Assembly (NCBI RefSeq): GCF_900102495.1
Contig: NZ_FMVQ01000001.1
Location: 124,001 to 188,000, forward strand
Source of the DNA: Nitrosospira sp. Nl5
GTDB lineage: Bacteria; Pseudomonadota; Gammaproteobacteria; Burkholderiales; Nitrosomonadaceae
Direction of reading: 5' to 3'
DNA: 64,000 nt
The position numbers were made by a program, and so were the translations under genes. Numbering within the stretch: the first letter of the stretch is position 1; every line of letters starts with the position of its first letter. The notes beneath the pieces are model-generated. The model made no database searches and was not told the origin of the DNA. It saw only the letters and a list, made by a program, of their open reading frames with translations. This document shows positions 1 to 11,070 of this stretch, one piece after another.

Positions 1-490
1 GCAACAGGCCGGGTTCGGGTTCTCCGGCCATGTCTTCATAAGCGACATCCTCACCCTCGATGGTCTGGGGCGCCGTCGACGACGCGGTGGAGTATTCCAG
101 CAACGAACTTTTCAGCCTGTCCCGCTCGGCTGTCCTGTCGGTTTTATCCTGACGCAGCTTTTCCATCAAAGCGGGGTCTCGGTCCTTTTCCTTCTTTTTC
201 TCTTCCGCCGCCAGTGCATTATTGGCAGCGGTAAGCTGCTCCTCGGCTCCCCTGAGCTTTGCCTTGATATCCTTCACTTCCGGGGAATCGCCAGAATCCG
301 GCGCAGCAACAGTGTTCTGCAGCGCCCCCATGGCGGCCACGGGATCATAAAACTCATTCGCTTCCGGACAGTAAATTGTATCGGGAACCAAGCCAATAAA
401 CGCCACCGTATTGGTTCCTACCCCTGTGATTGGCTGGCGTGCAGAAGGCACTTCTTCCACATAAACGCCCGGACTCAGATAATTTGCCAT
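1..490 (-). CDS. Contractile tail sheath protein, N-terminal part (eCIS); cut by window edge
   Basis: Reading the minus strand from the ATG at 490 gives an open frame to the window edge, about 163 residues. It begins MANYLSPGVYVEEVPSARQP; the SPGVYVEEV motif near the N-terminus is the hallmark of contractile phage-tail and eCIS sheath proteins. A GAAAAGGGG Shine-Dalgarno lies just upstream. After about residue 65 comes an unusual, strongly charged, probably coiled-coil stretch (KDIKAKLRGAEEQL to DRLKSSLLEY) not expected in a minimal sheath. The rest of the protein lies outside the window. With the two genes upstream on the same strand it forms an extracellular contractile injection system operon. 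The sheath assembles around the inner tube and contracts to drive it into a target. Family assignment is firm; the eCIS rather than prophage setting is inferred from the DUF4255 neighbour. Confidence 0.85.
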   Translation of the reverse strand, partial: MANYLSPGVYVEEVPSARQPITGVGTNTVAFIGLVPDTIYCPEANEFYDPVAAMGALQNTVAAPDSGDSPEVKDIKAKLRGAEEQLTAANNALAAEEKKKEKDRDPALMEKLRQDKTDRTAERDRLKSSLLEYSTASSTAPQTIEGEDVAYEDMAGEPEPGLL

Positions 491-610
491 TGCGCATCCC
501 CTTTTCATTAATGATCGTAAATTTGTTCCGTCGAAGCCGTCATTTGCTCCAGGAAACACCGTCTCTCATCGCTTAAACTATGGCCAGCGTTACACTTGCG
601 AGTGTTACGT

Positions 611-1033
611 TTACTGCTTTAGAACAAGCTCTATCCCGTATCCTTCCATTGGTGCCTGATCTTTCGTACGTTTCTTCCGTGCGCCCCCGGCAACCGTGGC
701 AGGCGTAGCCGACTTTTCCGCCTTGCCCCCGGAGGATGCGTCAACAGCGCGTACGGTATATTTCCCATCGGGACAATCCAGGAAGAAAAATATGCCATCG
801 GCGCGCGACTCGATTTGTCCCGGTTCACCGCAAGGGTGAGGCGCATCCGGAGCATCTGTTGCTCCTCGACGCGCTTGCGCGCGGCCAGCCGGCATGCCCG
901 GTTTCTGTGATTGTTTCGATTCAGCCGAAATGCCGATCTGAACACCTGGCATTGGCTTGCCCTCGGTATCGACGGTTCGGCCGCAAATACTTACGCGATG
1001 ACTCACGATTTCCCAGCTTGTCCATGCACTCAT
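611..1033 (-). CDS. Carboxypeptidase-regulatory-like domain protein of the eCIS operon
   Basis: This 140-residue protein has a beta-sandwich-like pattern. An opening strand, VSICGRTVDTEGKPMPGVQI, matches the 'GRVVDxxGxPLPGVxV' signature of CarboxypepD_reg/Peptidase_M14NE-type domains. A Ser/Ala/Pro-rich linker follows, and then DGIFFFLDCPDGKYTVRAVD, which resembles the second half of such a domain. The C-terminus (GGARKKRTKD...GIELVLKQ) is basic and then hydrophobic. Its start overlaps the end of the upstream DUF4255 gene by 4 bases (ATGA), which implies translational coupling, and the sheath gene follows 121 bases downstream. Such domains occur in eCIS loci as accessory structural or adhesion modules. 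A specific role (spike decoration, baseplate) cannot be read from the sequence. Confidence 0.7.
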   Translation of the reverse strand: MSAWTSWEIVSHRVSICGRTVDTEGKPMPGVQIGISAESKQSQKPGMPAGRAQARRGATDAPDAPHPCGEPGQIESRADGIFFFLDCPDGKYTVRAVDASSGGKAEKSATPATVAGGARKKRTKDQAPMEGYGIELVLKQ

Positions 1034-1629
1034 GAGTTCGCTCCTGTCTGCATGCGAAACTTGAGTATTTTTTCGGTGACAAGATCTACCGTCTCTGGCC
1101 GCGCGACATCCACGGCCAGTGTGACGGTATAGTTGAGCGCAGCCTTCGGCTTACCGCCCAGTGCCTGCCAGAATTCCCCGAGGCTTTGCAAGCGCCCCGG
1201 CTGGAGAGAGCTGACGGGCAGGGGTAAATCCTGATCCGTGAGGCTGCCTTGCAGTACATCCTGCGGGATGGTCCGGTAGCGCAGCAGTGCCTGAATGACA
1301 TTTCCCAGCAGACGATGCTCATCTTCGGAAGGGTTGGTAACGCTCTGGCTGGGCCATGCGGTAATCAGGTACGAAATATCAATTCGCACCGGGGCGGCGG
1401 TACGGGTGGCGGTTCCATCAGATCGCCGGTCCAGATATACCTCGTTACTTCGAAGCTCCATATTCTCCCGAATGTCATACAGAAAGAGATCGATGGCGGG
1501 CAGGGTCACGGAAGACGGAGGAAACTGATTGTCTGGTGCGCCGAAACTGACTTGCACCTGCTCAGCCAGCCCCTTTGGGAGCTCGCGTTTCAATAGAGCA
1601 GCCAGCGTTTCGTCCAGATCGTTAATCAT
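1030..1629 (-). CDS. DUF4255 (Pvc16-type) eCIS protein
   Basis: 199 residues, beginning MINDLDETLAALLKRELP. The pattern 'IxDLDxTLxxLL', then FGAPDNQF, then PAIDLFLYDIRENMELR, and later an ISYLITAW strand followed by EDEHRLLGNVIQALL is characteristic of DUF4255/Pvc16_N. This family is named from the Photorhabdus virulence cassette, where the protein caps or terminates the contractile tail. In Pvc-type loci it is a structural gene near the sheath and tube genes, as here. It is the first clear gene of the minus-strand operon. It overlaps the next gene by four bases, and a small unassigned frame ends six bases before its ATG. Confidence 0.85.
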   Translation of the reverse strand: MINDLDETLAALLKRELPKGLAEQVQVSFGAPDNQFPPSSVTLPAIDLFLYDIRENMELRSNEVYLDRRSDGTATRTAAPVRIDISYLITAWPSQSVTNPSEDEHRLLGNVIQALLRYRTIPQDVLQGSLTDQDLPLPVSSLQPGRLQSLGEFWQALGGKPKAALNYTVTLAVDVARPETVDLVTEKILKFRMQTGANS

Positions 1630-1635
1630 GATTGC

Positions 1636-1875
1636 TTACCGTTTCTGCATCGGCTGGCGTAAAAGCATAATGCCATACCCCCGCAATGACTCGTTCTCCC
1701 GAAAAATTTCCCGAGCAGACAACGCACCGGTACCTTTACGCCGTCGTGGTTTCTCCCATACACTCCCGCGCTGGGCATCTTTACCCGCATTTACTGCCAT
1801 GCAACTTCCATGCCAGTGTTTTTGGAGAAGATATCGCGTTGAATCAATGGCTTGATCAAAGCTGTTTGAGGGCAA
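1636..1875 (-). CDS. Small unassigned ORF upstream of the eCIS genes
   Basis: An open frame of 79 codons ends six bases before the DUF4255 start, so its stop codon (TAA inside GGTAAG) overlaps the only Shine-Dalgarno-like sequence of that gene. The product is basic with no recognised motif (GKDAQRGSVWEKPRRRKG in the middle). It has no obvious ribosome-binding site of its own. It could be a leader peptide coupled to the eCIS operon or simply a chance frame in the leader. Only the close spacing supports it. Confidence 0.25.
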   Translation of the reverse strand: MPSNSFDQAIDSTRYLLQKHWHGSCMAVNAGKDAQRGSVWEKPRRRKGTGALSAREIFRENESLRGYGIMLLRQPMQKR

Positions 1876-2382
1876 TGGGTCACTTTTCTCTTCGGAACTG
1901 CGATCGTCCGAAGCGATAATCCGGGATTGATTGCAAGCTCAAGTACCTGGAATCATTAGCTTATATTTTTGTTGGGTTGTTTCTAACCCAGGGTGGGTCG
2001 GAACGAAAAGTCTGTTTCCTGGAAAATACTTTCATTCCAAAGATTGGCGGGACTTTTTCAACCTGCGGTTTCGCTGTGAACACTACGAGCAGGAAATATA
2101 TTCGGGAGGGTACTGGAACAATGGGTTGACTTCGACCCAGTGGGGGTATTTTCTGATCTTTCTTTAACTTAATGAAACAAAACGGATAAATGGAAAGCCC
2201 TAATAGAGGCCGCGCCTTATTTGACTGAGCGACCCAACCACTCGCATGATAGGCAGAAGTAAGTAGTGGCTGATTCAACGATGTTTTATTTTTTTGATAT
2301 TACCGGCACGGAATTTGCTGGAGAAGTCACTGCATGACACCAATTCGTGGCATGCATCAAAGCTCTGTGTGCAGGGGGAAAG
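1876..2382. other. Divergent intergenic region between eCIS and signalling genes
   Basis: About 500 bases separate the divergent operons. No convincing coding frame is seen. Frames on both strands are short and lack recognisable protein character. A regulatory region controlling both directions is expected here, but no clear sigma-70 promoter or operator could be picked out by eye. Confidence 0.4.
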
Positions 2383-4011
2383 ATGTGTCCACTATCAAAA
2401 TTAAGATCCTGTTCAGGGGCCACTACTGGTCCGATGGCTGATGCGATGGGTCCGGATTACGCGCAGGATTCATCAAAAACGGTCGCGACATGGCTCACAG
2501 CGGTGGTCATTTCCGTCCTCATGTGGAGCGTCGCCCATGCAAGCGAGATCCAGGTTTTTTCGGTCAAAGAGAATCCCGCTGGTACCGTCGTTGCGACCAC
2601 CGGCGTCTTTGCGGAAACCACTCCGAGCGCATCTGCGTTTCAACTCCGGTTCGATGACAAGCTCGCGATTCGGGCCAACGAGGTTAAATCCGCGCCATCC
2701 TTTGCACCTGAGATATCGGTGATTCTTTGCGTCGACCAAAGCGGTTCCATGGGCCCCTCTGGCATCAAACAAATTCAGGAGGCGCTTAGGAGCGTTTTGG
2801 CCAAATCGGAACTGCAATTGAACCTCGCCTTATGGGCGTTTGACACAGAAGTCAGGAAGCTTCGCGGCTTTTCCAAAAATACTGCACAGATGGCAAAAGG
2901 CATTGGCGAGATCGGTGTTAAATCTGCACGGGATAGTAAAACCAAGCTGTACGAAGCCATCGAACTCGGTCTTTCCGAGTTGCGGAGCCATGATGACAAC
3001 GATCTGAAGCGCCTGATCGTCATTACCGATGGTAAGGATGACGGCAGCAGCATCACCGACCAGGTGATCGCAAGCAAGGCCAACGCCAAGGGGATTACCA
3101 TCTACGCGGTCGGGTTTGGCAATGTTACGGACGAAGATTCGGAATTGCTTGCACGCCTGACGAAAAACACGGGTGGCTACTTTATTCCTGCCGGCAACAC
3201 GCAGGAACTGACTCGCGCACTCCATCAATTACTCAATTTACCTGCGCCCCGCGTGTTTAACGTCTCGTTCCATTACAATGTATCGGGAGACGGGCGCCAA
3301 GTAGATTCCGCGCAACTGGAGTTTACACCCGAGGGGAAGGCGCCGGTGTTGCGAACGATGGTGTACGGGCTTTCAGCGCCCAGCGTTGCCAGTCCGCCAG
3401 GAACAGCGCCAACCCCGAATGGATCTGGGGACAAGTGGACGGTTAATCTGCTGTCGATCGATTTCGACCTCAGGCTCCTGTCGGCAATTCTGATTGGCAT
3501 CGTTGTACTCCTTGTCATCGTGGCAATGAAGCGTCCTCCGCCACCGTCACCCCCACCTCCTCCCCCGCCGCCGCCGCCTCCCCCCCGACCTTCAAAACGT
3601 GCGCGCACCTCCGTAGGTTTTGCGTTCCCGGCACCCGCCCAGGGGCGCCCCACAGCGATTCTGCATTGTCTTAGTGGACCCGCGAGAGGGCTACAGTATC
3701 CTATTGAGCAGACGATCTATCGCATCGGCTCGGGTGAGTCAAATGATTTGCAATTGAGCGATGATTATCTTTCGCACAAGCACGCCAGCATAAGATATGA
3801 CGACGGCAACCTCTATCTGAGCGACAGCGGATCGCGCAATGGAACTTTTCTGAATGATATGCGGCTCGACCAGACAGCCAAGGCACTTACCCCGGGGGAC
3901 CGTATTCGGGTTGGAAAATCGATGCTCGAGCTAGTTGCGACGGATGAGGATCGTGGAGTCAGACAAGCCAGGCAATACGACGCCGATGGGGGAGAGCAAC
4001 TGGTTCCGTAA
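2383..4011 (+). CDS. Membrane VWA-FHA signalling protein
   Basis: 542 residues. The start is taken at ATG 2383 because GGGGGA lies just before it; an in-frame GTG at 2347 is less likely. Domains in order: a signal anchor (about 35-53, WLTAVVISVLMWSVAHA); a von Willebrand A domain with the MIDAS motif D118-x-S120-x-S122 (DQSGSM) and VITDGKDDG; a second membrane span (about 364-381, LLSAILIGIVVLLVIVAM); a cytoplasmic run of some 16 prolines broken by one serine (385-402); and a C-terminal FHA domain (about 430-515) with RIGSGESND and SRNGTFLND phosphothreonine-pocket motifs. The topology suggests a periplasmic metal-dependent ligand sensor linked to a cytoplasmic phosphothreonine reader. The PP2C, FHA and Ser/Thr kinase genes downstream fit this. 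The ligand is unknown. Confidence 0.85.
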   Translation: MCPLSKLRSCSGATTGPMADAMGPDYAQDSSKTVATWLTAVVISVLMWSVAHASEIQVFSVKENPAGTVVATTGVFAETTPSASAFQLRFDDKLAIRANEVKSAPSFAPEISVILCVDQSGSMGPSGIKQIQEALRSVLAKSELQLNLALWAFDTEVRKLRGFSKNTAQMAKGIGEIGVKSARDSKTKLYEAIELGLSELRSHDDNDLKRLIVITDGKDDGSSITDQVIASKANAKGITIYAVGFGNVTDEDSELLARLTKNTGGYFIPAGNTQELTRALHQLLNLPAPRVFNVSFHYNVSGDGRQVDSAQLEFTPEGKAPVLRTMVYGLSAPSVASPPGTAPTPNGSGDKWTVNLLSIDFDLRLLSAILIGIVVLLVIVAMKRPPPPSPPPPPPPPPPPPRPSKRARTSVGFAFPAPAQGRPTAILHCLSGPARGLQYPIEQTIYRIGSGESNDLQLSDDYLSHKHASIRYDDGNLYLSDSGSRNGTFLNDMRLDQTAKALTPGDRIRVGKSMLELVATDEDRGVRQARQYDADGGEQLVP

Positions 4012-4068
4012 TTCTGGCATACAGCGGATCAAACGACTGTACTGGATACCAAGAGGGATACCAAGATT

Positions 4069-5034
4069 GTGAAACAGCCAATTGCAAGCCAATTGTCGGT
4101 AGGTGCCCGTTCCGAAACAGGGTACGTCCGGAACGAGAACCAGGACAGGATGGGTTGCGTGAGAGCCGCTTTCGGCGACGTGTATATTGTGTCGGACGGC
4201 ATGGGAGGTCATCGGGGCGGGGCGCTCGCAGCCGAACTGACAGTCCAGGCACTAACGCAAGGCCTGTCTCATATTCGTTCGGTTGCTGGAATACCTGCAG
4301 AAACAAAACGTGCCTTCGAAGAGGCGAACAGGACGGTCTATGAGCAGGGGCACTCGGGAGCAATGGAAACTCGAGGCATGGGCGCCACAGCCGTCGTACT
4401 GCTGGTGGCAGGGTCGAGGGCCATAGTCGCCCATGTGGGGGATAGCCGTGCCTATCTATTTGCTCGGCGTGAACTGCGTCAGTTGACCAAAGATCATAGC
4501 CGCGTTCAGCGCTTGGTGGATGCGGGAATGTTAACAGCCGCCGAGGCCATGTCGCACCCTGATGCGAGTCTACTGGAACGAGCAATGGGCACTTCACTGG
4601 ACGTAACGGTGGATATTTCCCCATGGATACCACTGCATGCGGGTGATCAGGTTCTTCTGTGTTCGGATGGGCTTCATGGCTATGTTGCCGATAGCGAGAT
4701 CGGCACCATCCTGGGTCAGGACGCGACAGTGCAGGAATTGACGGACCAGCTTGTCAATCGCGCCTTGCAGAAAGGCGGGGAAGATAACATAACCGTTCAG
4801 TTGATCGAATACGGGCGTCGGCGCAAACGCGGGTGGCCGCAGGTTATTAGCCGTTTTGCCATCGTTTTTCCGATCGCTCTGGGTGTTCCGGCGGGGGAAT
4901 ACAGGAGGGTTGGAGAGGAGTCCGGGGTACAGATAGCCCGGGTTGACAAGTTGCCTGTCTACCGAGTCGGAGAGCGCCACCCACGCCGGTATAGCGAAAC
5001 ACGATGCGTATTAGATACCGTAAACACTGCATAA
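4069..5034 (+). CDS. PP2C-family protein serine/threonine phosphatase
   Basis: 321 residues from a GTG at 4069, preceded by AAGAGGGA. All metal-binding PP2C motifs are visible: RNENQDR (about 22-28), SDGMGGHRGG (about 42-51), GDSRAYL, CSDGLHGY and GGEDNITV. A complete catalytic domain therefore ends near residue 245. A further 75 residues follow: a basic RRRKR stretch, a short hydrophobic run (FAIVFPIALGVPA) and an unrelated tail. Most PP2C proteins of such modules end at the catalytic domain or with a proper membrane span, so the tail may derive from an old frameshift. The enzyme would remove phosphates placed by the kinase encoded at 8642-9964, resetting the FHA-dependent switch. Confidence 0.9.
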   Translation: MKQPIASQLSVGARSETGYVRNENQDRMGCVRAAFGDVYIVSDGMGGHRGGALAAELTVQALTQGLSHIRSVAGIPAETKRAFEEANRTVYEQGHSGAMETRGMGATAVVLLVAGSRAIVAHVGDSRAYLFARRELRQLTKDHSRVQRLVDAGMLTAAEAMSHPDASLLERAMGTSLDVTVDISPWIPLHAGDQVLLCSDGLHGYVADSEIGTILGQDATVQELTDQLVNRALQKGGEDNITVQLIEYGRRRKRGWPQVISRFAIVFPIALGVPAGEYRRVGEESGVQIARVDKLPVYRVGERHPRRYSETRCVLDTVNTA

Positions 5035-5051
5035 ACCAGAGGTCATTGCTA

Positions 5052-5828
5052 ATGAACGACAAATCGAAGCAGAGCGACATTTCCAAATGGTGGAAACAGA
5101 TTGTCGGAAGCAGTGCCTCGGACACCCGTGTTTGCGAAAAGGGGCATCCGATGGACCCGAATTGGAAAACCTGTGCCTATTGCGATGCCGAGGCTCGTGC
5201 CCATCAAAAAACCGCTCACGAACCTGATGAGATCGAATCAAGCCAATCTACGCAAAGGAGCATCACCATGGAAAGGAGAACTACACAGATAGACAATGGA
5301 GAATCAGGCGAAGGACGGGGTGCGACAAAGTTTGAGACATCAGCCGGCGTGTCCCCCCCGAGAGAAAAACCCGAGACGCGCCTCCAAACCGGGAAATCAG
5401 ATACGAGTCAGAGAAAACTTACCGGCGTGCTGGTTACATTCAACTGGAGGCCACAGGGTAAATTATTTCCCCTTTATGAAGGACGCAATGTTATCGGTTC
5501 CGGTTCCGAGGAGACGTGCGACATTTACATTTCCAACAGAACTGACGAGATGATATCCAAGGAGCATGCCGTCATCCTCTGCCGCGCCGGGAGAGACGAA
5601 CTGCATGACATGCTCAGCACCAATGGGACTTTTCTCAATGAGAAGTATGTTGAAAGAGACGGCGCTGATCTGGTTGACGGCGCATTAATCAAAACCGGAG
5701 CGACCGTGTTTGAGTTCAGGAAATTTACCAGTGGCGGCGACCGGGCGCCTGAAAGTGACAAGGCCAGATACTACGAAAGTGAAGGGGATATCCGGAGAAC
5801 TCGCTCTCCAGGAGAAACCGAGATTTGA
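5052..5828 (+). CDS. FHA-domain protein with N-terminal zinc ribbon
   Basis: 258 residues from ATG 5052, preceded by AGAGGT; an in-frame ATG at 5004 would overlap the phosphatase gene. Near residues 30-60 the pattern C-E-K-G-H then C-A-Y-C (CEKGHPMDPNWKTCAYC) is a small zinc ribbon. A polar, Thr-rich linker follows (RSITMERRTTQI), a plausible phosphorylation site region. The C-terminal half is an FHA domain with NVIGSGSEETCDI, SKEHAVI and LSTNGTFLNE. It is probably a soluble adaptor that is phosphorylated on threonine by the nearby kinase and binds phosphothreonine partners, as Fha proteins do in type VI secretion posttranslational control. The partner is unknown; an eCIS or lipoprotein target is a guess from location. 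Confidence 0.85.
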   Translation: MNDKSKQSDISKWWKQIVGSSASDTRVCEKGHPMDPNWKTCAYCDAEARAHQKTAHEPDEIESSQSTQRSITMERRTTQIDNGESGEGRGATKFETSAGVSPPREKPETRLQTGKSDTSQRKLTGVLVTFNWRPQGKLFPLYEGRNVIGSGSEETCDIYISNRTDEMISKEHAVILCRAGRDELHDMLSTNGTFLNEKYVERDGADLVDGALIKTGATVFEFRKFTSGGDRAPESDKARYYESEGDIRRTRSPGETEI

Positions 5829-5891
5829 CGCGGGTACGATTCGCAGCGGGAGAACTGTCTTCCCTGTTCCACGGATCTTGCGGAAAGGTTA

Positions 5892-6130
5892 TTAACCTAA
5901 ATCCGGTAGTTGACCGCTCATTTAATAAATCATCGTTATGGTTATAACGATATTTCGTATTATTTTACTCTCATCTTGCGGGTGAGGCCGCTACGGGATG
6001 AATTGCACAATTTTTGCGGTACATGGCAGCGTTGCAACTCCTTGGAATAATCATTCCCGCATCGTTGCGCCTTGCCCTGTACCCCAAAAACCGCACAATT
6101 CACCCCGCCCAACTACCGGATTTAGGTTAA
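5892..6130. mobile_element. MITE-like palindromic mini-element, copy 1
   Basis: A 239-bp element bounded by a perfect 21-bp terminal inverted repeat: TTAACCTAAATCCGG... at 5892-5912 and ...CCGGATTTAGGTTAA at 6110-6130. Its inner half (about 6000-6105) is itself a long imperfect palindrome (AATTGCACAATTTTTGCGGTACA against its complement in CCCTGTACCCCAAAAACCGC). It contains no coding frame. A diverged copy with the same ends and the same core phrase (GTTGCAACTCCTTGGAAT) lies at 39199-39440. The structure fits a non-autonomous miniature inverted-repeat element. Its right end stops 13 bases before the next start codon. Confidence 0.8.
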
Positions 6131-6143
6131 TGGAAGAAGCATC

Positions 6144-6797
6144 ATGAAGATAATCGCCGCAATGCTACTTTTAACCCTCATAACAGGGTGCAGCACAGTA
6201 GGCGGAACCCGGGGGAGTTCGGGAATGGCCGCGCTTGAATGCGGCGCTATCGGGGCGGGACTTGCCACCGCAATATGTTTGGCAGCGGGCGGTAGCGCCG
6301 CGGCATGCGCGGGTTCCGCCGCGGGTGGCGGCCTTCTTGGCGCAGGGGTCTGCTATACCTACGCCGAAAAATATGAGAAACGCCGCCAGGAACTCGCCGG
6401 TAAAGAGAATGATGTGGATGCGCGACTGAAGTATGTACGCGGACTCAATGAAGATTCAGAAAAATTGAATCAGGAACTGAACACCCGCGTTGCCCAGATC
6501 TCCAAGCGCACGGATACGATTGTCGCGCAGATTAATCAAGGCACCATTTCCCAGCAGGAGCTGGTAAAAGAAAGGGAGGCATTGCTCAAGGCGGAGAATG
6601 CGGCGAAAGACCAGGTTGCGCTTGAAAAAGCCGCATTGGAGGACATGAAGCGTTTTCAGGCCGAGCAAGCGCGCAAGACCAGTGCGGATAGCGCGGCGCA
6701 TGCCGAACTGGATGCCGAAATCAGGAAACAGGAACATCTGCTCGCCGAGACACGAAGGGCCACCAGCGCGCTTGCTTCCCAGCGCCAGAGAATATAG
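6144..6797 (+). CDS. Lipoprotein with glycine-rich segment and long coiled coil
   Basis: 217 residues with a GGAAG ribosome-binding site seven bases upstream of ATG 6144. The N-terminus (MKIIAAMLLLTLITGCSTVG) is a lipoprotein signal with lipobox ITGC. A Gly/Ala-rich hydrophobic stretch follows (residues about 30-72, GAGLATAICLAAGG...GGGLLGAGVCY), similar to glycine-zipper segments that insert in membranes. The rest (about 75-217) is a charged helical coiled coil (EKRRQELAGKENDVDARL...). Probably anchored in the outer or inner membrane facing the periplasm, with a rod of about 140 residues. It stands between the FHA gene and a second coiled-coil lipoprotein, so it may be an envelope partner of the signalling module. 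No named family was recognised. Confidence 0.75.
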   Translation: MKIIAAMLLLTLITGCSTVGGTRGSSGMAALECGAIGAGLATAICLAAGGSAAACAGSAAGGGLLGAGVCYTYAEKYEKRRQELAGKENDVDARLKYVRGLNEDSEKLNQELNTRVAQISKRTDTIVAQINQGTISQQELVKEREALLKAENAAKDQVALEKAALEDMKRFQAEQARKTSADSAAHAELDAEIRKQEHLLAETRRATSALASQRQRI

Positions 6798-6841
6798 ACC
6801 AACCAAGCCGGAATAAGGAATACAAGCAACATAGGGAACAT

Positions 6842-6919
6842 AAGGAATATAAGGAATATAAGGAATATAAGGAATATAAGGAATATAAGGAATATAAGGA
6901 ATATAAGGAATATAAGGAA
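6842..6919 (+). repeat. Tandem 9-bp repeat array (AAGGAATAT x 8 plus partial)
   Basis: Eight perfect head-to-tail copies of AAGGAATAT (6842-6913) and a ninth partial copy AAGGAA. Degenerate related units (ATAAGGAATAC, ATAGGGAAC) precede them from about 6813. The last AAGGA serves as the Shine-Dalgarno of the ATG at 6924. Every unit therefore carries a ribosome-binding-like core. Confidence 0.95.
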
Positions 6920-6923
6920 CAGG

Positions 6924-7370
6924 ATGGTGGCAGACATCAGATCAATGGCAATGCTGGCGGTTTTAACGTCCGCGCTGTGCGCATGCACTGTTATGCAGCT
7001 CAAAAAAGATGTGGAGCAAGATGAAGCACGCGTAGTGGGCAAGGAAGGCGAACTCAAAACCGAAGAAGCGCGGCAGGCTCAGCTACGCGGGGAAATCGCC
7101 CGGTTACAGGAGGATTTGTCGAACCGGCAAGTATCGCTGGACGATCTGCAGTCGCGACTGGCACAACTGCTGCGGGCAAATGCGAATACGCCGGATGTCA
7201 CCCAGGAACAGCGAGCGCTCAAGCAGCGGCGAGAAGTGAAATTGAAGGCGCATCAGAAGGAACTGGTCAAGATCCAGCAGAGCGACGAGACCATCACGGA
7301 AAAGAAAAAAAAGCTGGAGCACCTCAAGGAAGAAATCAGGAAATCCCTGAATCTTCTGATGCACTCCTGA
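6924..7370 (+). CDS. Small coiled-coil lipoprotein
   Basis: 148 residues. The ATG at 6924 follows AAGGAACAGG from the repeat array. A second in-frame ATG at 6945 is possible. The N-terminus (SMAMLAVLTSALCACTVMQ) has a lipobox-like LCAC with the acceptor cysteine near residue 21. Everything after it is a charged, heptad-like helix (DVEQDEARVVGKEGELK... to HLKEEIRKSLNLLMHS), so it is almost certainly a coiled coil. It resembles its upstream neighbour in design but lacks the glycine-rich segment. The S41 protease gene starts 12 bases downstream, so the two are likely co-translated. It may be an adaptor or substrate of that protease. No family recognised. Confidence 0.7.
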   Translation: MVADIRSMAMLAVLTSALCACTVMQLKKDVEQDEARVVGKEGELKTEEARQAQLRGEIARLQEDLSNRQVSLDDLQSRLAQLLRANANTPDVTQEQRALKQRREVKLKAHQKELVKIQQSDETITEKKKKLEHLKEEIRKSLNLLMHS

Positions 7371-7382
7371 TAACGTGCCGGC

Positions 7383-8549
7383 ATGGCGCACATTAACGTC
7401 GGGTCAGGAACCGCCTTACTGGTAGTGACAGTCGCCTTTCTCGGCGGCTACCTGTTCAAAGCCATCCTGCCCTGGTTTGACGAAGATATGCCGGCAGGCG
7501 CGCAGCGGTCGCAAGTGAAGGAGCCCGCAATAAGCCGCTATGCCGAAGCGCTTGCACATATTGAGCAGCGCGCGGTGTTTTCAACTCCCGTAGGAGACCT
7601 TCAAGACATGGTGGCCGCCTCTTTAAAAACGTATCTTGCGAAAAAAGATCCCTATTCGGATTTTCTGACCCGGCAAGAATATGCGAAATTCAAGGCGGCG
7701 GGCAGCGAGTATTACGTTGGCATAGGTCTTGATATTGAGAAGCGCCGCAATGGCGATATTATCTGCTACCCGCTTCCGAACGGATCCGCCGCAACGGCGG
7801 GAATCAAGCCAGGCGAGCGTCTGCTGGCGGTCGACGGCGTTTCCACCCAGGGAAAATCGCTTCCCGCCGTCGTCGCCCTGGCAATCGGCAAAGCGGGGAC
7901 TACCGTTGTGGTGGAGCTTGCGGACTCTTCCGGGAATCGCAGGCAAGTAACCGTTACCCGGTCGACAATAGCCGGTCCCGCAGTATCCGAGTATACGTTT
8001 CGCTCCGCGCGTATTATCAAATTGGCGAACTTTACGCCCAGCACCAGGCAGGAGCTCGATTATCTGGTTTCCAACTGGCACAAGCGTGATCCCATTGTCA
8101 TTGATTTGCGGGGTTGCGGCGGTGGGGATTTTTACGCGGCGGTGAATTCCGCAATGCTCTTCCTCAAGAAAGGGGAGCCAATCGTCTCGGTAAGCGGACG
8201 CTCCGGCACGCGGTCGTATTCGGCTACGGTTGCACGGCAGCCGCCCGCACAACGCGTGTTTTTGTGGCAAGACGAATTTACCGCCAGCGCTGCGGAGATA
8301 TTTATCGCCGCTTTAACAGACAATGCGCGTGGCACGTCGATCGGAAGAACAACCGCCGGAAAGGGAACCCGGCAGGACATTATTGAGCTGACGGATGGCG
8401 GCGGCGTCCTGATTTTGACGACGGGATACCTGATAACTCCCGATGGCGTACGATTTGAAGGCACGGGGCTGGCACCGATGCGCCCGGTTGCGGAGAGTAC
8501 CGATGATACGGAGGCATTCCTTCACAAAACCGCCGCCTCCATCCATTAG
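7383..8549 (+). CDS. Membrane-anchored S41 (CtpA-like) PDZ protease
   Basis: 388 residues. An N-terminal anchor (about 7-28, GTALLVVTVAFLGGYLFKAI) is followed by a helical lead, a PDZ domain (about 105-182, GIGLDIEKRRNGDIICYPLP...PGERLLAVDG) and an S41 peptidase domain. The catalytic dyad is visible as FTASAAE with Ser302 and AGKGTRQ with Lys327; their 25-residue spacing equals that of classical carboxyl-terminal processing proteases. It should cut C-terminal tails of unfolded or specific envelope proteins in the periplasm. In the middle of a kinase/FHA module it may process the lipoproteins just upstream or the VWA sensor. The target is inference; the protease family is secure. Confidence 0.88.
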   Translation: MAHINVGSGTALLVVTVAFLGGYLFKAILPWFDEDMPAGAQRSQVKEPAISRYAEALAHIEQRAVFSTPVGDLQDMVAASLKTYLAKKDPYSDFLTRQEYAKFKAAGSEYYVGIGLDIEKRRNGDIICYPLPNGSAATAGIKPGERLLAVDGVSTQGKSLPAVVALAIGKAGTTVVVELADSSGNRRQVTVTRSTIAGPAVSEYTFRSARIIKLANFTPSTRQELDYLVSNWHKRDPIVIDLRGCGGGDFYAAVNSAMLFLKKGEPIVSVSGRSGTRSYSATVARQPPAQRVFLWQDEFTASAAEIFIAALTDNARGTSIGRTTAGKGTRQDIIELTDGGGVLILTTGYLITPDGVRFEGTGLAPMRPVAESTDDTEAFLHKTAASIH

Positions 8550-8641
8550 GCCGTTAGGGCAGGATGGACCGATGGACCGCTGGTCCGTGCTTTATTACTC
8601 AGGGCGGGCCTGGCAGGTGAAATGCCAATTTGGAGTCGACT

Positions 8642-9964
8642 GTGGAAAACGATGATCTGATCGGCAAGACAATACATGGCAGCTATTTAATTACGTCCAA
8701 ACTCGGCGAGGGCGCAATGGGTCAGGTTTATCTCGCCGAGAATTCCCTGGTTCAGGACAAGAAATATGCGATAAAAGTTCTTAGGAGGGAGCTGACCCGT
8801 AGCCCGAACTTCAAGCAGCAATTTTACGAAGAGGCAGCGCACCAGGCGCAACTCTCCCATCCCAATATCGTTCAGATGTATGACTATTTTCAGGAAGGCG
8901 AAGACTATTTTCTTGTTCTCGAGTATGTCGATGGACGTTCGCTGGCCGACAGGATTGATGCCCTGGGCGGACCAATGGCCGAGAAGGAGGCCTTGCACAT
9001 CTTCAAGGGCGTCCTGGCGGGACTCAACTGTGCGCATGAGAAAGCAATCCTGCATCGGGATATCAAGGCCCCCAACGTGATGGTCGACAATAGCAACAGG
9101 GCGCTGTTGACAGACTTCGGCATCGCACGGCAGTCCGGCGGTGAAAGCGCCGCGAATATTGGGCGTGTGATTGGCACACCCGAGTACATGAGTCCCGAAC
9201 AATTCGAGAATTCGGACAAAATCGATCATAGGTCGGACGTCTATTCGGCCGGAATTCTTTTATTCGAGATGCTGACCGGCCGTTTGCCATTTAAGGATAC
9301 CTCCCGGGAAACACTTAAACAACAGCATATAGCCACTCCCACCCCCAATCCCCGCATCATCAATTCGAAGATCAAAAAACCTCTCGCCAACATCGTATTG
9401 AAGGCAACACAGAAGGATCCGGGTGACCGGTTTCAAGGCTGCCTCGCCTTTCTCAAGGCGATTGAGTACTACGAGCGCGGCAGGAACTGGAAAATCTGGG
9501 GACTGAGCCTATCCATCATCCTGGCAGCGGGGATTTGGTATTTTGTACAGAACTTGAAAGCGGTGCGCAGCTTGGCAAGCTTGGCAACCGATAATTATGC
9601 GTTGTTATGTCGAGAGGCCGAAACATTGAAACGAAAGGAAACAGGTTTGCGCATTGCGGCGGAATCGGGCGATGCGGAAATGGTGGAAGCGTTTTCGAAA
9701 CACGTGTCGGACCACAATGCGAATATCGAGAAATTTCTAGGGGATTATGCCAGCGCCTTCCGTGAATTATCGACATTCAGAGGTAGCACCGCGCATAAGG
9801 TATTTAGCGAGCGGGAGCAAATCGACGTGCGGACGAGATACGAGCAGGCCGATGAATCGGAACGGGCAAAATTCTGGCAATTAACCGGCGACGATTACGA
9901 ACAATTCACGACTACCGGACAAAGCCCCGACAGGGGAAGGATGCTGGAAAAGTGTCCGCCTTAG
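8642..9964 (+). CDS. Transmembrane serine/threonine protein kinase
   Basis: 440 residues from GTG 8642, which follows GGAG by seven bases; a TTG at 8630 is the alternative. It is a Hanks-type kinase with all key motifs: GEGAMG glycine loop (about 22-27), YAIKVL lysine (about 44), HRDIKAPN catalytic loop (His138-Asp140), DFG (Asp158), GTPEYMSPEQ and SDVYSAGILLFEMLTG. One membrane span follows (about 285-303, IWGLSLSIILAAGIWYFVQ). The 135-residue outer domain is helical and charged and has no PASTA repeats. It very likely phosphorylates the FHA proteins encoded upstream and is opposed by the PP2C enzyme. It closes the signalling gene set, with the outer domain as a probable envelope sensor. Confidence 0.92.
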   Translation: MENDDLIGKTIHGSYLITSKLGEGAMGQVYLAENSLVQDKKYAIKVLRRELTRSPNFKQQFYEEAAHQAQLSHPNIVQMYDYFQEGEDYFLVLEYVDGRSLADRIDALGGPMAEKEALHIFKGVLAGLNCAHEKAILHRDIKAPNVMVDNSNRALLTDFGIARQSGGESAANIGRVIGTPEYMSPEQFENSDKIDHRSDVYSAGILLFEMLTGRLPFKDTSRETLKQQHIATPTPNPRIINSKIKKPLANIVLKATQKDPGDRFQGCLAFLKAIEYYERGRNWKIWGLSLSIILAAGIWYFVQNLKAVRSLASLATDNYALLCREAETLKRKETGLRIAAESGDAEMVEAFSKHVSDHNANIEKFLGDYASAFRELSTFRGSTAHKVFSEREQIDVRTRYEQADESERAKFWQLTGDDYEQFTTTGQSPDRGRMLEKCPP

Positions 9965-10101
9965 CCTGGTATTCTCGGCGCAATCCATGCATTTTTTTTG
10001 GCGATTGGAGAAAGAGAGAGCGGTAAAACTGGTTTATCCCTCGCAATCTGGCGAAATACCCGCCTTGACGAGGGTTGCTGTTCTAAAAAGGAGATCCGAA
10101 A

Positions 10102-10494
10102 ATGGAACTACGGGTGGAAAGGACAGATTTTTCTGAAAATAGTACGATTGGCAAGCTATACGTGGATGATCAGTTTGAATGCTACACTTTGGAAGACAAG
10201 GTCAGGCCGGTCAAGATCAAGGGGAAGACAGCTATTCCCACGGGGCGCTATGAGGTCATTATTAACCACTCGCAGCGATTTAATCGCCCGCTTCCGCTTT
10301 TTCTGGATGTACCCGACTTCGTGGGAGTTCGAATACATCCCGGCAATACAGCAGCGGATACAGAGGGATGTATCCTGGTAGGCGAGACGAAAGAAGAAGG
10401 ATTCATAGGTCAAAGTAAACCGGCTTTTGAACGGCTTTTCGATAAATTGAAGGCCGCTTCCGAGACCGAGAAGATATTCATAGAGATAGGATAG
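10102..10494 (+). CDS. DUF5675 family protein
   Basis: 130 residues with an excellent AAGGAGAT ribosome-binding site before ATG 10102. The sequence has the DUF5675 pattern: TIGKLYVDDQFECYTLED, then IPTGRYEVIINHS, FLDVPDFVGVRIHPGN, and TEGCILVG near residues 88-95. The His-Pro-Gly-Asn and Gly-Cys-Ile-Leu-Val-Gly motifs resemble the active-site area of peptidoglycan L,D-transpeptidase-like folds. The family is common in phage and tail-like loci and may act on cell wall, but its reaction is not established. It sits 137 bases after the kinase gene and 12 bases before an exported protein, so it may be an effector or accessory of the same locus. Confidence 0.75.
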   Translation: MELRVERTDFSENSTIGKLYVDDQFECYTLEDKVRPVKIKGKTAIPTGRYEVIINHSQRFNRPLPLFLDVPDFVGVRIHPGNTAADTEGCILVGETKEEGFIGQSKPAFERLFDKLKAASETEKIFIEIG

Positions 10495-10506
10495 CGGCAT
10501 CTGGTA

Positions 10507-11070
10507 ATGTTGAGCCTCCTGAAAATACTGCGCTCCGGTTTCGCCGTTATATTGATCTTCGTGCCCCTTGTGCTGTTCATGCACCTGGATGCGTTTGCGC
10601 AAACGAAAGCGGAAGCGATTCCGTTCATGCATGAGAAAACATATCTCTTGCCGTCCGGCAAGAGCGTCGCCATCAAGTTTCGGGAGCGCCCATGCGAGAG
10701 TGCCGGGAGCAGGGGGTGCAGCGAAGCCGACGCGGGGACGTGGGGCACGGACGGAGGCGTTCCACGGTTCCTTACCGAAGTATTCCTGGTTTCCATCGAC
10801 GGCAGGGAATTCGTCATTCCCGAGAAATTCTACAAGGATTTGACCAACACTTATCACTTGAATGCCTTTGAACAAAAGACGCGCGTTATTATCGAACTCA
10901 AGGGTGGGGAAGCCGCGGGCGCTTACACCGCACGTTTTACGCTTGGCGGGACATGCGGATTCGAGCGAAAGGTCTGTGGGGAGGTTTGCGGGGAAATCTG
11001 GGAGCGGACCACCTGGTACAACGCATTCGCCTATGAAGCAGAAGCGGGATGCGAGAGTGGAATTCAATGA
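10507..11070 (+). CDS. Cysteine-rich exported protein of unknown function
   Basis: 187 residues. The N-terminus (LRSGFAVILIFVPLVLFMHLDAFAQ) is a signal peptide with a likely cut after AFA (about residue 31). The mature part contains paired cysteines (RPCESAGSRGCSE; GTCGFERKVCGEVCGE; AGCES), suggesting several disulfides in the periplasm or outside. The strand-rich pattern (RFLTEVFLVSIDGREFVIPEKFY) suggests a beta fold. No family recognised. It starts 12 bases after the DUF5675 gene and is probably co-transcribed. A pairing of a possible wall-active protein with a secreted disulfide-rich partner is conceivable (for example effector and inhibitor), but that is speculation. Confidence 0.6.
   Translation: MLSLLKILRSGFAVILIFVPLVLFMHLDAFAQTKAEAIPFMHEKTYLLPSGKSVAIKFRERPCESAGSRGCSEADAGTWGTDGGVPRFLTEVFLVSIDGREFVIPEKFYKDLTNTYHLNAFEQKTRVIIELKGGEAAGAYTARFTLGGTCGFERKVCGEVCGEIWERTTWYNAFAYEAEAGCESGIQ

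Follow-up and report, generated by a model that had tools for sequence, protein, structure and literature searches.

An extracellular contractile injection system island of Nitrosospira with a putative threonine-phosphorylation control module

Do the signalling genes that lie beside an extracellular contractile injection system (eCIS) serve it, or are they chance neighbours? The question is raised by a 64,000-nucleotide stretch of Nitrosospira sp. Nl5 (the window, C24:124001-188000, C24 being the contig that carries it in this 3.0 Mb genome), near the start of which seven plus-strand genes (window 2347-9964) diverge from an eCIS operon. In order, they encode a VWA-FHA protein, a PP2C phosphatase, a zinc-ribbon FHA protein, lipoprotein A (LipoA), lipoprotein B (LipoB), an S41 protease and a transmembrane kinase, together called the module hereafter. 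The triggers of eCIS production, docking and release are poorly known, and an earlier note on this DNA had proposed that the eCIS is under phosphorylation control of the kind known for the type VI secretion system (T6SS). The genes it named were found at or near the places it gave them, with Pfam support for Pvc16_N, VWA, FHA, PP2C, S41, kinase and DUF5675, and its divergent pair of eCIS and signalling operons was borne out, the eCIS being much larger than the window shows. Our analysis indicates that the locus is probably an eCIS island with a dedicated threonine-phosphorylation control module, predicted to work in a T6SS-like manner with different proteins.

Linkage of the module and eCIS genes

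Genus counts refer throughout to 23 genomes of Nitrosospira/Nitrosovibrio, labelled G000 upward, and L-numbers denote loci extracted for inspection, with coordinates of their own. The VWA-FHA gene was present in 7 of the 23 genus genomes versus none of 38 other relatives, and all seven copies start at most 1 kb from an eCIS gene. Six of the seven module loci adjoin an eCIS of a two-sheath type, and every one of the six eCIS of this type has the module. The seventh (G019) has the same module and control region opposite a second eCIS type with a long Pvc16 and a winged-helix AAA ATPase 38% identical to ours. The seven module genes were matched in the same order in all seven loci, with a second kinase between the zinc-ribbon FHA and LipoA genes in G014, G010 and G016. 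The eCIS gene Pvc16 occurs in 10 of the 23 genomes and the module in none of the 13 without it (one-sided Fisher p 4.9e-4, which assumes independent genomes, as these are not); the sheath C-terminal domain occurs in 11, the eleventh being G020, which is without Pvc16.

A search of 72,556 plasmid records with VWA-FHA gave one match, in Paraburkholderia caribensis MBA4 (32% identical), where an eCIS of the same type (Pvc16 67%, both sheaths and further eCIS genes) again diverges from a module. This comprises VWA-FHA (32%), PP2C (52%), zinc-ribbon FHA (43%), the second kinase (54%), LipoA (41%), LipoB (31%, 74 residues), S41 protease (46%) and kinase (43%), followed by DUF4280 (54%), and its gene order is that of the genus, including the second kinase as in three genus loci. 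Paraburkholderia and Nitrosospira/Nitrosovibrio, which we take to belong to different families, keep module and eCIS together, apparently under different transcription control, and this co-occurrence suggests that a phosphorylation switch controls this type of syringe.

All eight loci found with this VWA-FHA (seven in the genus, one in Paraburkholderia) adjoin an eCIS; a search of the sampled genomes for a copy distant from any eCIS revealed none. A VWA-FHA profile applied to 398 genomes of the phylum (at most three candidates scored per genome) recovered the own genome only, plus one FHA-only match, and a LipoA profile gave full-length matches in 2 of 399 genomes of the order, both genus members; these scans are samples, and neither revealed Paraburkholderia. 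Viral contigs held no VWA-FHA relative. LipoA relatives from a different genus of the family (five genomes) and from elsewhere in the order (one genome) shared the Gly-rich N-terminal part only and were rejected; none of the eight places concerned had another module match, and 5 of the 8, annotated, held no eCIS gene. The earlier note had regarded the link as one of proximity only. Eight of eight loci with an eCIS, the kept module order, the divergent sigma-54-like sites and the Deinococcus FHA-tail fusion described below go further than that, and support a predicted dedication of the module to the eCIS beyond proximity.

Components of the module

The first gene (2347-4011, plus strand, start codon uncertain) encodes a membrane protein with a hydrophobic N-terminal segment, a VWA domain, a transmembrane segment at residues 375-393 and an FHA domain, so that one protein holds both VWA (Pfam, 8.5e-16) and FHA (2.1e-17). 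Its MIDAS motif, DxSxS, which the earlier note had picked out, is intact in six of seven sequences. The PP2C Ser/Thr phosphatase (4069-5034, plus strand) is Stp1-like (PP2C_2 PF13672 7.1e-16; 224.7 bits against NF033484, cut-off 230), and its Asp motifs are invariant among the aligned sequences. The zinc-ribbon FHA adaptor (5004-5828, plus strand; FHA 2.9e-11) has an uncertain start, with a frame overlapping that of PP2C by 31 bases; the zinc ribbon itself was confirmed in that C44, H48, C57 and C60 are invariant in seven sequences. LipoA (6144-6797, plus strand) possesses the lipobox LITGC, a Gly-rich segment and a coiled-coil-like tail, and is 47-83% identical across the other six genus module loci and 41% in Paraburkholderia. 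LipoB (6924-7370, plus strand) is short and coiled-coil-like, with a lipobox weaker than the clear one of LipoA. The CtpA-like S41 protease with a PDZ domain (7383-8549, plus strand; S41 peptidase 8.7e-29) scored 176.5 bits against TIGR00225, under the cut-off of 218.6, and retains TASA[AG]E and AGKGTR in six aligned sequences. The transmembrane Ser/Thr kinase (8630-9964, plus strand; PF00069 4.8e-54) retains K49, HRD and DFG and has a transmembrane segment at about residues 289-307, beyond which lies a C-terminal domain predicted to be helical, in a structure model that is otherwise unreliable (mean pLDDT 47.5).

The claim that every part of a threonine-phosphorylation switch is present therefore stands as a parts list by Pfam and motifs, with activity predicted. 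The dN/dS values of five module genes (LipoB and the zinc-ribbon FHA left out) were 0.07-0.24 in 15 comparisons, some synonymous sites being near saturation. In PADLOC, the kinase matched many defence kinase models, PP2C and LipoB had one weak match each (PDC-M21C 9.1e-10 and JetC 2.5e-05, respectively), and VWA-FHA, the zinc-ribbon FHA, LipoA and S41 had none; several proteins of one anti-phage defence system were not matched.

The divergent control region

Two sigma-54-like promoters, identified like all sigma-54 sites here as consensus matches, lie between the operons: TGGCATGGAAGTTGCA (1800-1815, minus strand, score 21.5 of 22.5) faces the eCIS and CGGCACGGAATTTGCT (2304-2319, plus strand, score 20.5) faces the module. 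The palindrome TGGGTTGTTTCTAACCCA (1973-1990), a candidate enhancer site, is 157 bases from the eCIS-side promoter, and a second palindrome, TGGGTTGACTTCGACCCA (2122-2139), is 164 bases from the module-side promoter. Sigma-54-like sites stand at the same places in seven genus genomes, scoring 18.5-22.5 on the eCIS side and 19.5-20.5 on the module side (maximum 22.5), with 19.5-20.0 for the module-side sites of the six genomes other than our own, and the palindrome TGGGT-N8-ACCCA lies 141-173 bases from a promoter in the genus module loci. Twelve exact copies were counted in the seven intergenic regions (two each in G000, G019, G014, G004 and G022, one each in G010 and G016), against an average of 0.0085 and at most 1 across 2000 Markov resamples; elsewhere, 967,288 bases of other examined loci held 5. 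G019 keeps the entire arrangement of promoters and palindromes despite its other eCIS type. Upstream of four module-less sheath genes no exact palindrome was found, and the best same-strand sites scored 15.5-18. The exact 18-base motifs were counted locally in place of a genus-wide search with a 30-base palindrome pattern (three mismatches), which was uninformative, its hits falling below the reversed control in 20 of 23 genomes and above it in G019, G001 and G020.

Beyond the eCIS genes, at C24:96425-97525, lies a gene for a sigma-54 activator (enhancer-binding protein) with a Sigma54_activat AAA domain (PF00158 3e-62) and a Fis-type helix-turn-helix (PF02954 1.3e-08), and rpoN is encoded in the same genome. 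Orthologues of the activator (71-77%) occur in exactly the seven module genomes; among the remaining genus genomes, seven have matches of 50-53% and nine have none at E 1e-70. Beside the activator and outside the window is the gene of a small protein, sm118 (C24:95857-96213, L004:9857-10213), closely preceded by a sigma-54-like site (scores 19.5-22) in all five island genomes with the region covered, G016 and G014 lying outside coverage. Homologues of sm118 were found in 9 of 32 eCIS loci examined at class level, eight of the nine with an upstream site of at least 19.5 (the start in L085 is uncertain, and L075 has no site). None was detected in the second-type eCIS of G013, G003 and G011, in the eCIS on contig C23 of the own genome, in eight loci from other phyla or among the plasmid records. 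The five regions before sm118 held no exact palindrome; two-mismatch sites occurred in G000, G004 and G022, as they did in 39 of 400 random pieces. We consider sm118 a candidate for a conserved eCIS regulator. An activator homologue was found in 6 of the 32 class-level loci. Sigma-54 may control some eCIS, and a small partner protein is encoded close to eCIS genes in other genera too. Near the activator of G010 (Nitrosovibrio tenuis), L040:10246-11358 encodes a VWA paralogue without FHA, 49% identical to VWA-FHA.

Predicted mechanism and competing explanations

We infer the substrates of the kinase, its signal and the direction of control as follows. The island's sigma-54 activator would fire, and particle and module would be produced together. 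The transmembrane kinase may then read the envelope through its extracytoplasmic domain, with help from LipoA, LipoB, the S41 protease and the VWA domain in the periplasm, and would phosphorylate the FHA adaptors or an eCIS component, with PP2C reversing the reaction. The FHA proteins, one of them membrane-bound, would in turn gate particle assembly, membrane docking or release. Such a role after transcription probably fits better than that of a standing sensor, because module and particle appear to be co-switched.

Several results weigh against this reading. Within the genus, G013, G003 and G011 possess a second-type eCIS (sheaths 47-50% identical to that of G019 over the best segments) with no VWA-FHA genome-wide and no module genes in the examined stretch, and the eCIS on C23 of the own genome is without the module as well. 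At class level, none of 32 eCIS loci (5-20 kb each; drawn from 37 Pvc16 places that 369 genomes yielded beyond the own one) gave a kinase, PP2C, FHA, VWA-FHA, S41 or lipoprotein match with profiles or blastp; as a positive control, the same module profiles recovered the Paraburkholderia module at 32-54% identity. A Pvc16 scan of contigs gave 12 loci, eight of them outside the genus, and the seven annotated ones (L047, 3.6 kb, was omitted), from Anammoxibacter, Chloroflexota and Zixibacteriota, had no module gene, some flanks being short (1.4-10 kb before Pvc16). With so many eCIS loci lacking it, the module counts as an accessory that some eCIS have. The distances of eCIS genes track those of VWA-FHA unevenly, with correlations from 0.20 to 0.95; because these are few and uneven and backbone genes reach 0.39 and 0.53, co-divergence of module and eCIS is not proven.

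Further objections concern the signalling proteins and the promoters. The main kinase is without a Thr between DFG and IGT in six of seven sequences. The canonical phosphothreonine contacts of FHA domains are Arg, Ser and Asn, the Arg after the glycine contacting the phosphothreonine. Both FHA proteins of the module lack this Arg, seen in GarA; the position is Ser/Ala in VWA-FHA and Ser/Lys in the zinc-ribbon FHA, with Ser and Asn kept. Binding may therefore be weak or phospho-independent. Single sigma-54 sites score within the random range (300 random 950-base pieces: best-score median 18, 90th percentile 20) and are for that reason weak evidence; it is the conserved positions that carry the case. 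Finally, the intergenic region of P. caribensis has no divergent sigma-54 pair and holds a different, 24-base palindrome, so sigma-54 control is not universal. Taken with the linkage, the proposed phospho-control circuit is upheld as far as dedication to the eCIS goes, as an accessory of some eCIS only; likewise, the question of whether eCIS are conserved without the module has two answers, many other eCIS (three second-type, C23, 32 of 32 and 7 of 7) lacking it and all six of the two-sheath type having it.

The strongest competitor is that the module acts mainly on transcription, sensing envelope stress and freeing the enhancer-binding protein through phosphorylation or FHA binding, which would switch the sigma-54 promoters on. 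It would suit an activator in which no receiver or sensor domain was recognised, the AAA domain starting near residue 46, and whose orthologues occur in just the module genomes of the genus. We nevertheless consider it unlikely, since the Paraburkholderia pair of module and eCIS persists without the divergent sigma-54 pair, the activator homologues in six of the 32 class-level eCIS loci are there without the module, and the module is itself under a putative sigma-54 promoter, to be made with the particle and not before it.

That an independent envelope-stress cassette hitch-hikes in the eCIS island with no functional tie is more improbable still. The parts do resemble generic PknB-, Stp1-, FHA- and CtpA-like proteins, and eCIS often live without the module; yet no copy was found away from an eCIS (38 relatives, 398 phylum genomes with at most three candidates scored in each, plasmid records), the order is the same in two genera, the module is retained with a different eCIS type in G019, and the divergent control region is shared across the genus. 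Dedicated control of the eCIS accounts for the locus better in our judgement.

Comparison with known systems

The T6SS threonine-phosphorylation pathway (PpkA/PppA/Fha, with TagQRST or RtkS) is the closest parallel. Both systems have a transmembrane kinase, a phosphatase, FHA and VWA beside a contractile machine, and outer-membrane or periplasmic inputs, which are predicted ones in the present case; here too, kinase, PP2C and FHA genes stand together next to such a machine. Some T6SS are reported to be under RpoN and the enhancer-binding protein VasH (PMC10482370, PMC6082577, PMC3224232), and PpkA of P. aeruginosa has an extracellular VWA sensor domain (PMC3224232). The machine here, in contrast, is an eCIS; an FHA protein, and not the kinase, bears the VWA, and the operon includes an S41 protease. 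Capture of the cassette from a T6SS cluster, for which the same logic and the shared transmembrane kinase, PP2C, FHA, VWA and lipoproteins would speak, as would the VWA sensor just mentioned, is very improbable given that the module FHA proteins reach 43.6 and 18.2 bits against TagH/VI_FHA (TIGR03354, cut-off 120.25), that kinase and VWA are on separate proteins, and that no TagF or TagR family is among the module protein matches.

Known eCIS regulators (GerE/LuxR, BTAD, RfaH) are likewise gene neighbours of eCIS; unlike the module here, they act as transcription factors, in some cases accompanied by a histidine kinase, and the words 'FHA' and 'sigma' are absent from the main text of the source (PMC8213781). 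CisA of Streptomyces, a membrane accessory protein needed for firing of the contractile injection system, is also membrane-linked, but is described as one bitopic protein that has a substrate-binding-like domain, unlike a multi-gene module, in a main text where 'kinase' and 'phosphorylat' do not occur (PMC12237407). No report of dedicated kinase/PP2C/FHA control of an eCIS was found in the open-licence literature among the matches listed. An eCIS with T6SS-like phospho-control would thus be a combination not yet known, its function being itself a prediction.

FHA-tail fusions in Deinococcus

The Paraburkholderia Pvc16 matched 30 plasmid records, of which seven were examined (Paraburkholderia, Nostoc, Rhodococcus, one S. 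clavuligerus, Streptomyces NBC_01324 and two Deinococcus), eight Serratia and the remaining Streptomyces records being set aside. The Rhodococcus and S. clavuligerus eCIS had no module match, NBC_01324 was judged by annotation alone, and in Nostoc the sole find was a kinase/histidine-kinase hybrid, some 4 kb ahead of Pvc16. The Tail_P2_I protein of the eCIS carries a fused FHA domain in Deinococcus aquaticus and D. psychrotolerans (L142:18854-19840 and L143:26303-27229; FHA 6.1e-16 and 1.5e-09, Tail_P2_I 3.1e-13 and 6.7e-11, respectively). Adjoining the fusion gene is one for a kinase about 1600 aa long, which has a hydrophobic segment and an FHA domain of its own, and the D. psychrotolerans cluster also holds a vWA protein, which does not match the module at E 1e-3. 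Three further Deinococcus records match both halves of the fusion, and a kinase match adjoins the FHA match in all five, in the same open frame in D. grandis; the five stretches gave no PP2C, LipoA or S41 module match. The Arg of the tail FHA is kept (IGR), and its Ser position differs from the canonical motif. In Streptomyces clavuligerus the tail half alone matches, among the matches listed (20 of 42 records), and the fusion had no match in 50,697 phage records.

As in our locus, FHA and a Ser/Thr kinase are within the eCIS cluster of Deinococcus, in one case also with vWA; the Deinococcus proteins are different ones, with the very long kinase and the FHA fused to the tail protein. Tentatively, phosphorylation-gated eCIS may be a general class with more than one origin, as a separate betaproteobacterial module and as the Deinococcus FHA in a tail protein beside an FHA-bearing membrane kinase, in which FHA would dock the particle at an envelope sensor, making it membrane-held and signal-fired and not freely released. 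If true, T6SS-like post-translational gating would be a testable general principle for eCIS, found in two genera and, through the FHA-tail fusion, in another phylum.

eCIS genes and the boundary of the island

The eCIS cluster is cut by the window edge and extends 26 kb further upstream on the minus strand, from C24:97,973. The upstream part encodes two sheath proteins, a gp19 tube protein, a LysM-bearing tube protein, gp25, baseplate J, a tail protein, a winged-helix AAA ATPase, an eCIS_core/DUF4157 protein (957 aa, PF13699 2.6e-27) and DUF4280, and the eCIS hallmark set (sheath, tube, gp25, baseplate J, Pvc16/DUF4255 and eCIS-type AAA ATPase) is present. Within the window, the first gene of the operon is Pvc16_N/DUF4255 (1030-1629, minus strand; PF14065 4.5e-34), 82-89% identical to its counterparts in five other genus genomes. 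The CarboxypepD_reg-like gene that follows (611-1033, minus strand) scored 24.1 bits against PF13620, under the Pfam cut-off of 32.3; this family assignment by the earlier note thus falls short, and the gene itself is kept between Pvc16 and sheath in five other same-type eCIS of the genus. Of sheath gene 1, the window holds the 5' part (2-559, minus strand) of a 574-aa frame running to C24:122,835, which matches Phage_sheath_1C (1.3e-17) and Phage_sheath_1 (6.2e-11) at full length. At C23:315001-335000 (L039) the own genome has an eCIS of another type, whose sheath is about 800 aa long; that stretch contains no kinase module. A different, cyclic di-GMP input is suggested for the second-type eCIS of G013 by a neighbouring CHASE-PAS-GGDEF-EAL protein (L035:15482-18649).

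The genes for DUF5675 (Pfam 2e-35) and a Cys-rich secreted protein (window 10102-11070) had been counted with the module, and this did not hold. The usual order in the 16 module-less genus genomes is cysS - DUF5675 - Cys-rich protein - EI24 - TPR, and EI24, directly downstream of the island, is found in all 23 genomes. DUF5675 (full length) and the Cys-rich gene (at least 85% of length) were matched in 14 of the 16 module-less genomes, and the spacing of the cysS and DUF5675 matches is 94-399 bases in 12 of them. The exceptions are G003, with a 5.2 kb insert, G018, whose contig stops before cysS, G020, with DUF5675 degraded and the Cys-rich gene unmatched, and G017, where neither gene matched. 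These positions place the island between cysS and DUF5675 and show the latter, together with the Cys-rich gene, to belong to the chromosomal backbone; neither was matched beside the Paraburkholderia module. Being backbone genes, the two were rejected as module members or as a pair of effector and immunity protein. For DUF5675, a Tlde1_dom match is weak (E 0.0025), and the H..G..GC motif presumably resembles that of L,D-transpeptidases.

The island is at another place in G022, with its own DUF5675 copy and the usual site empty, and part of it appears inverted in G004. Both DUF5675 and the Cys-rich gene appear disrupted in G019 (L029:2050-2935), the genome whose island carries the second eCIS type. 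The insert of about 5 kb at the cysS-DUF5675 site of G003 (L133:1736-6772) contains a lipoprotein gene like one beside the G022 island as well as a short fragment resembling the activator, and is perhaps the remnant of a lost island.

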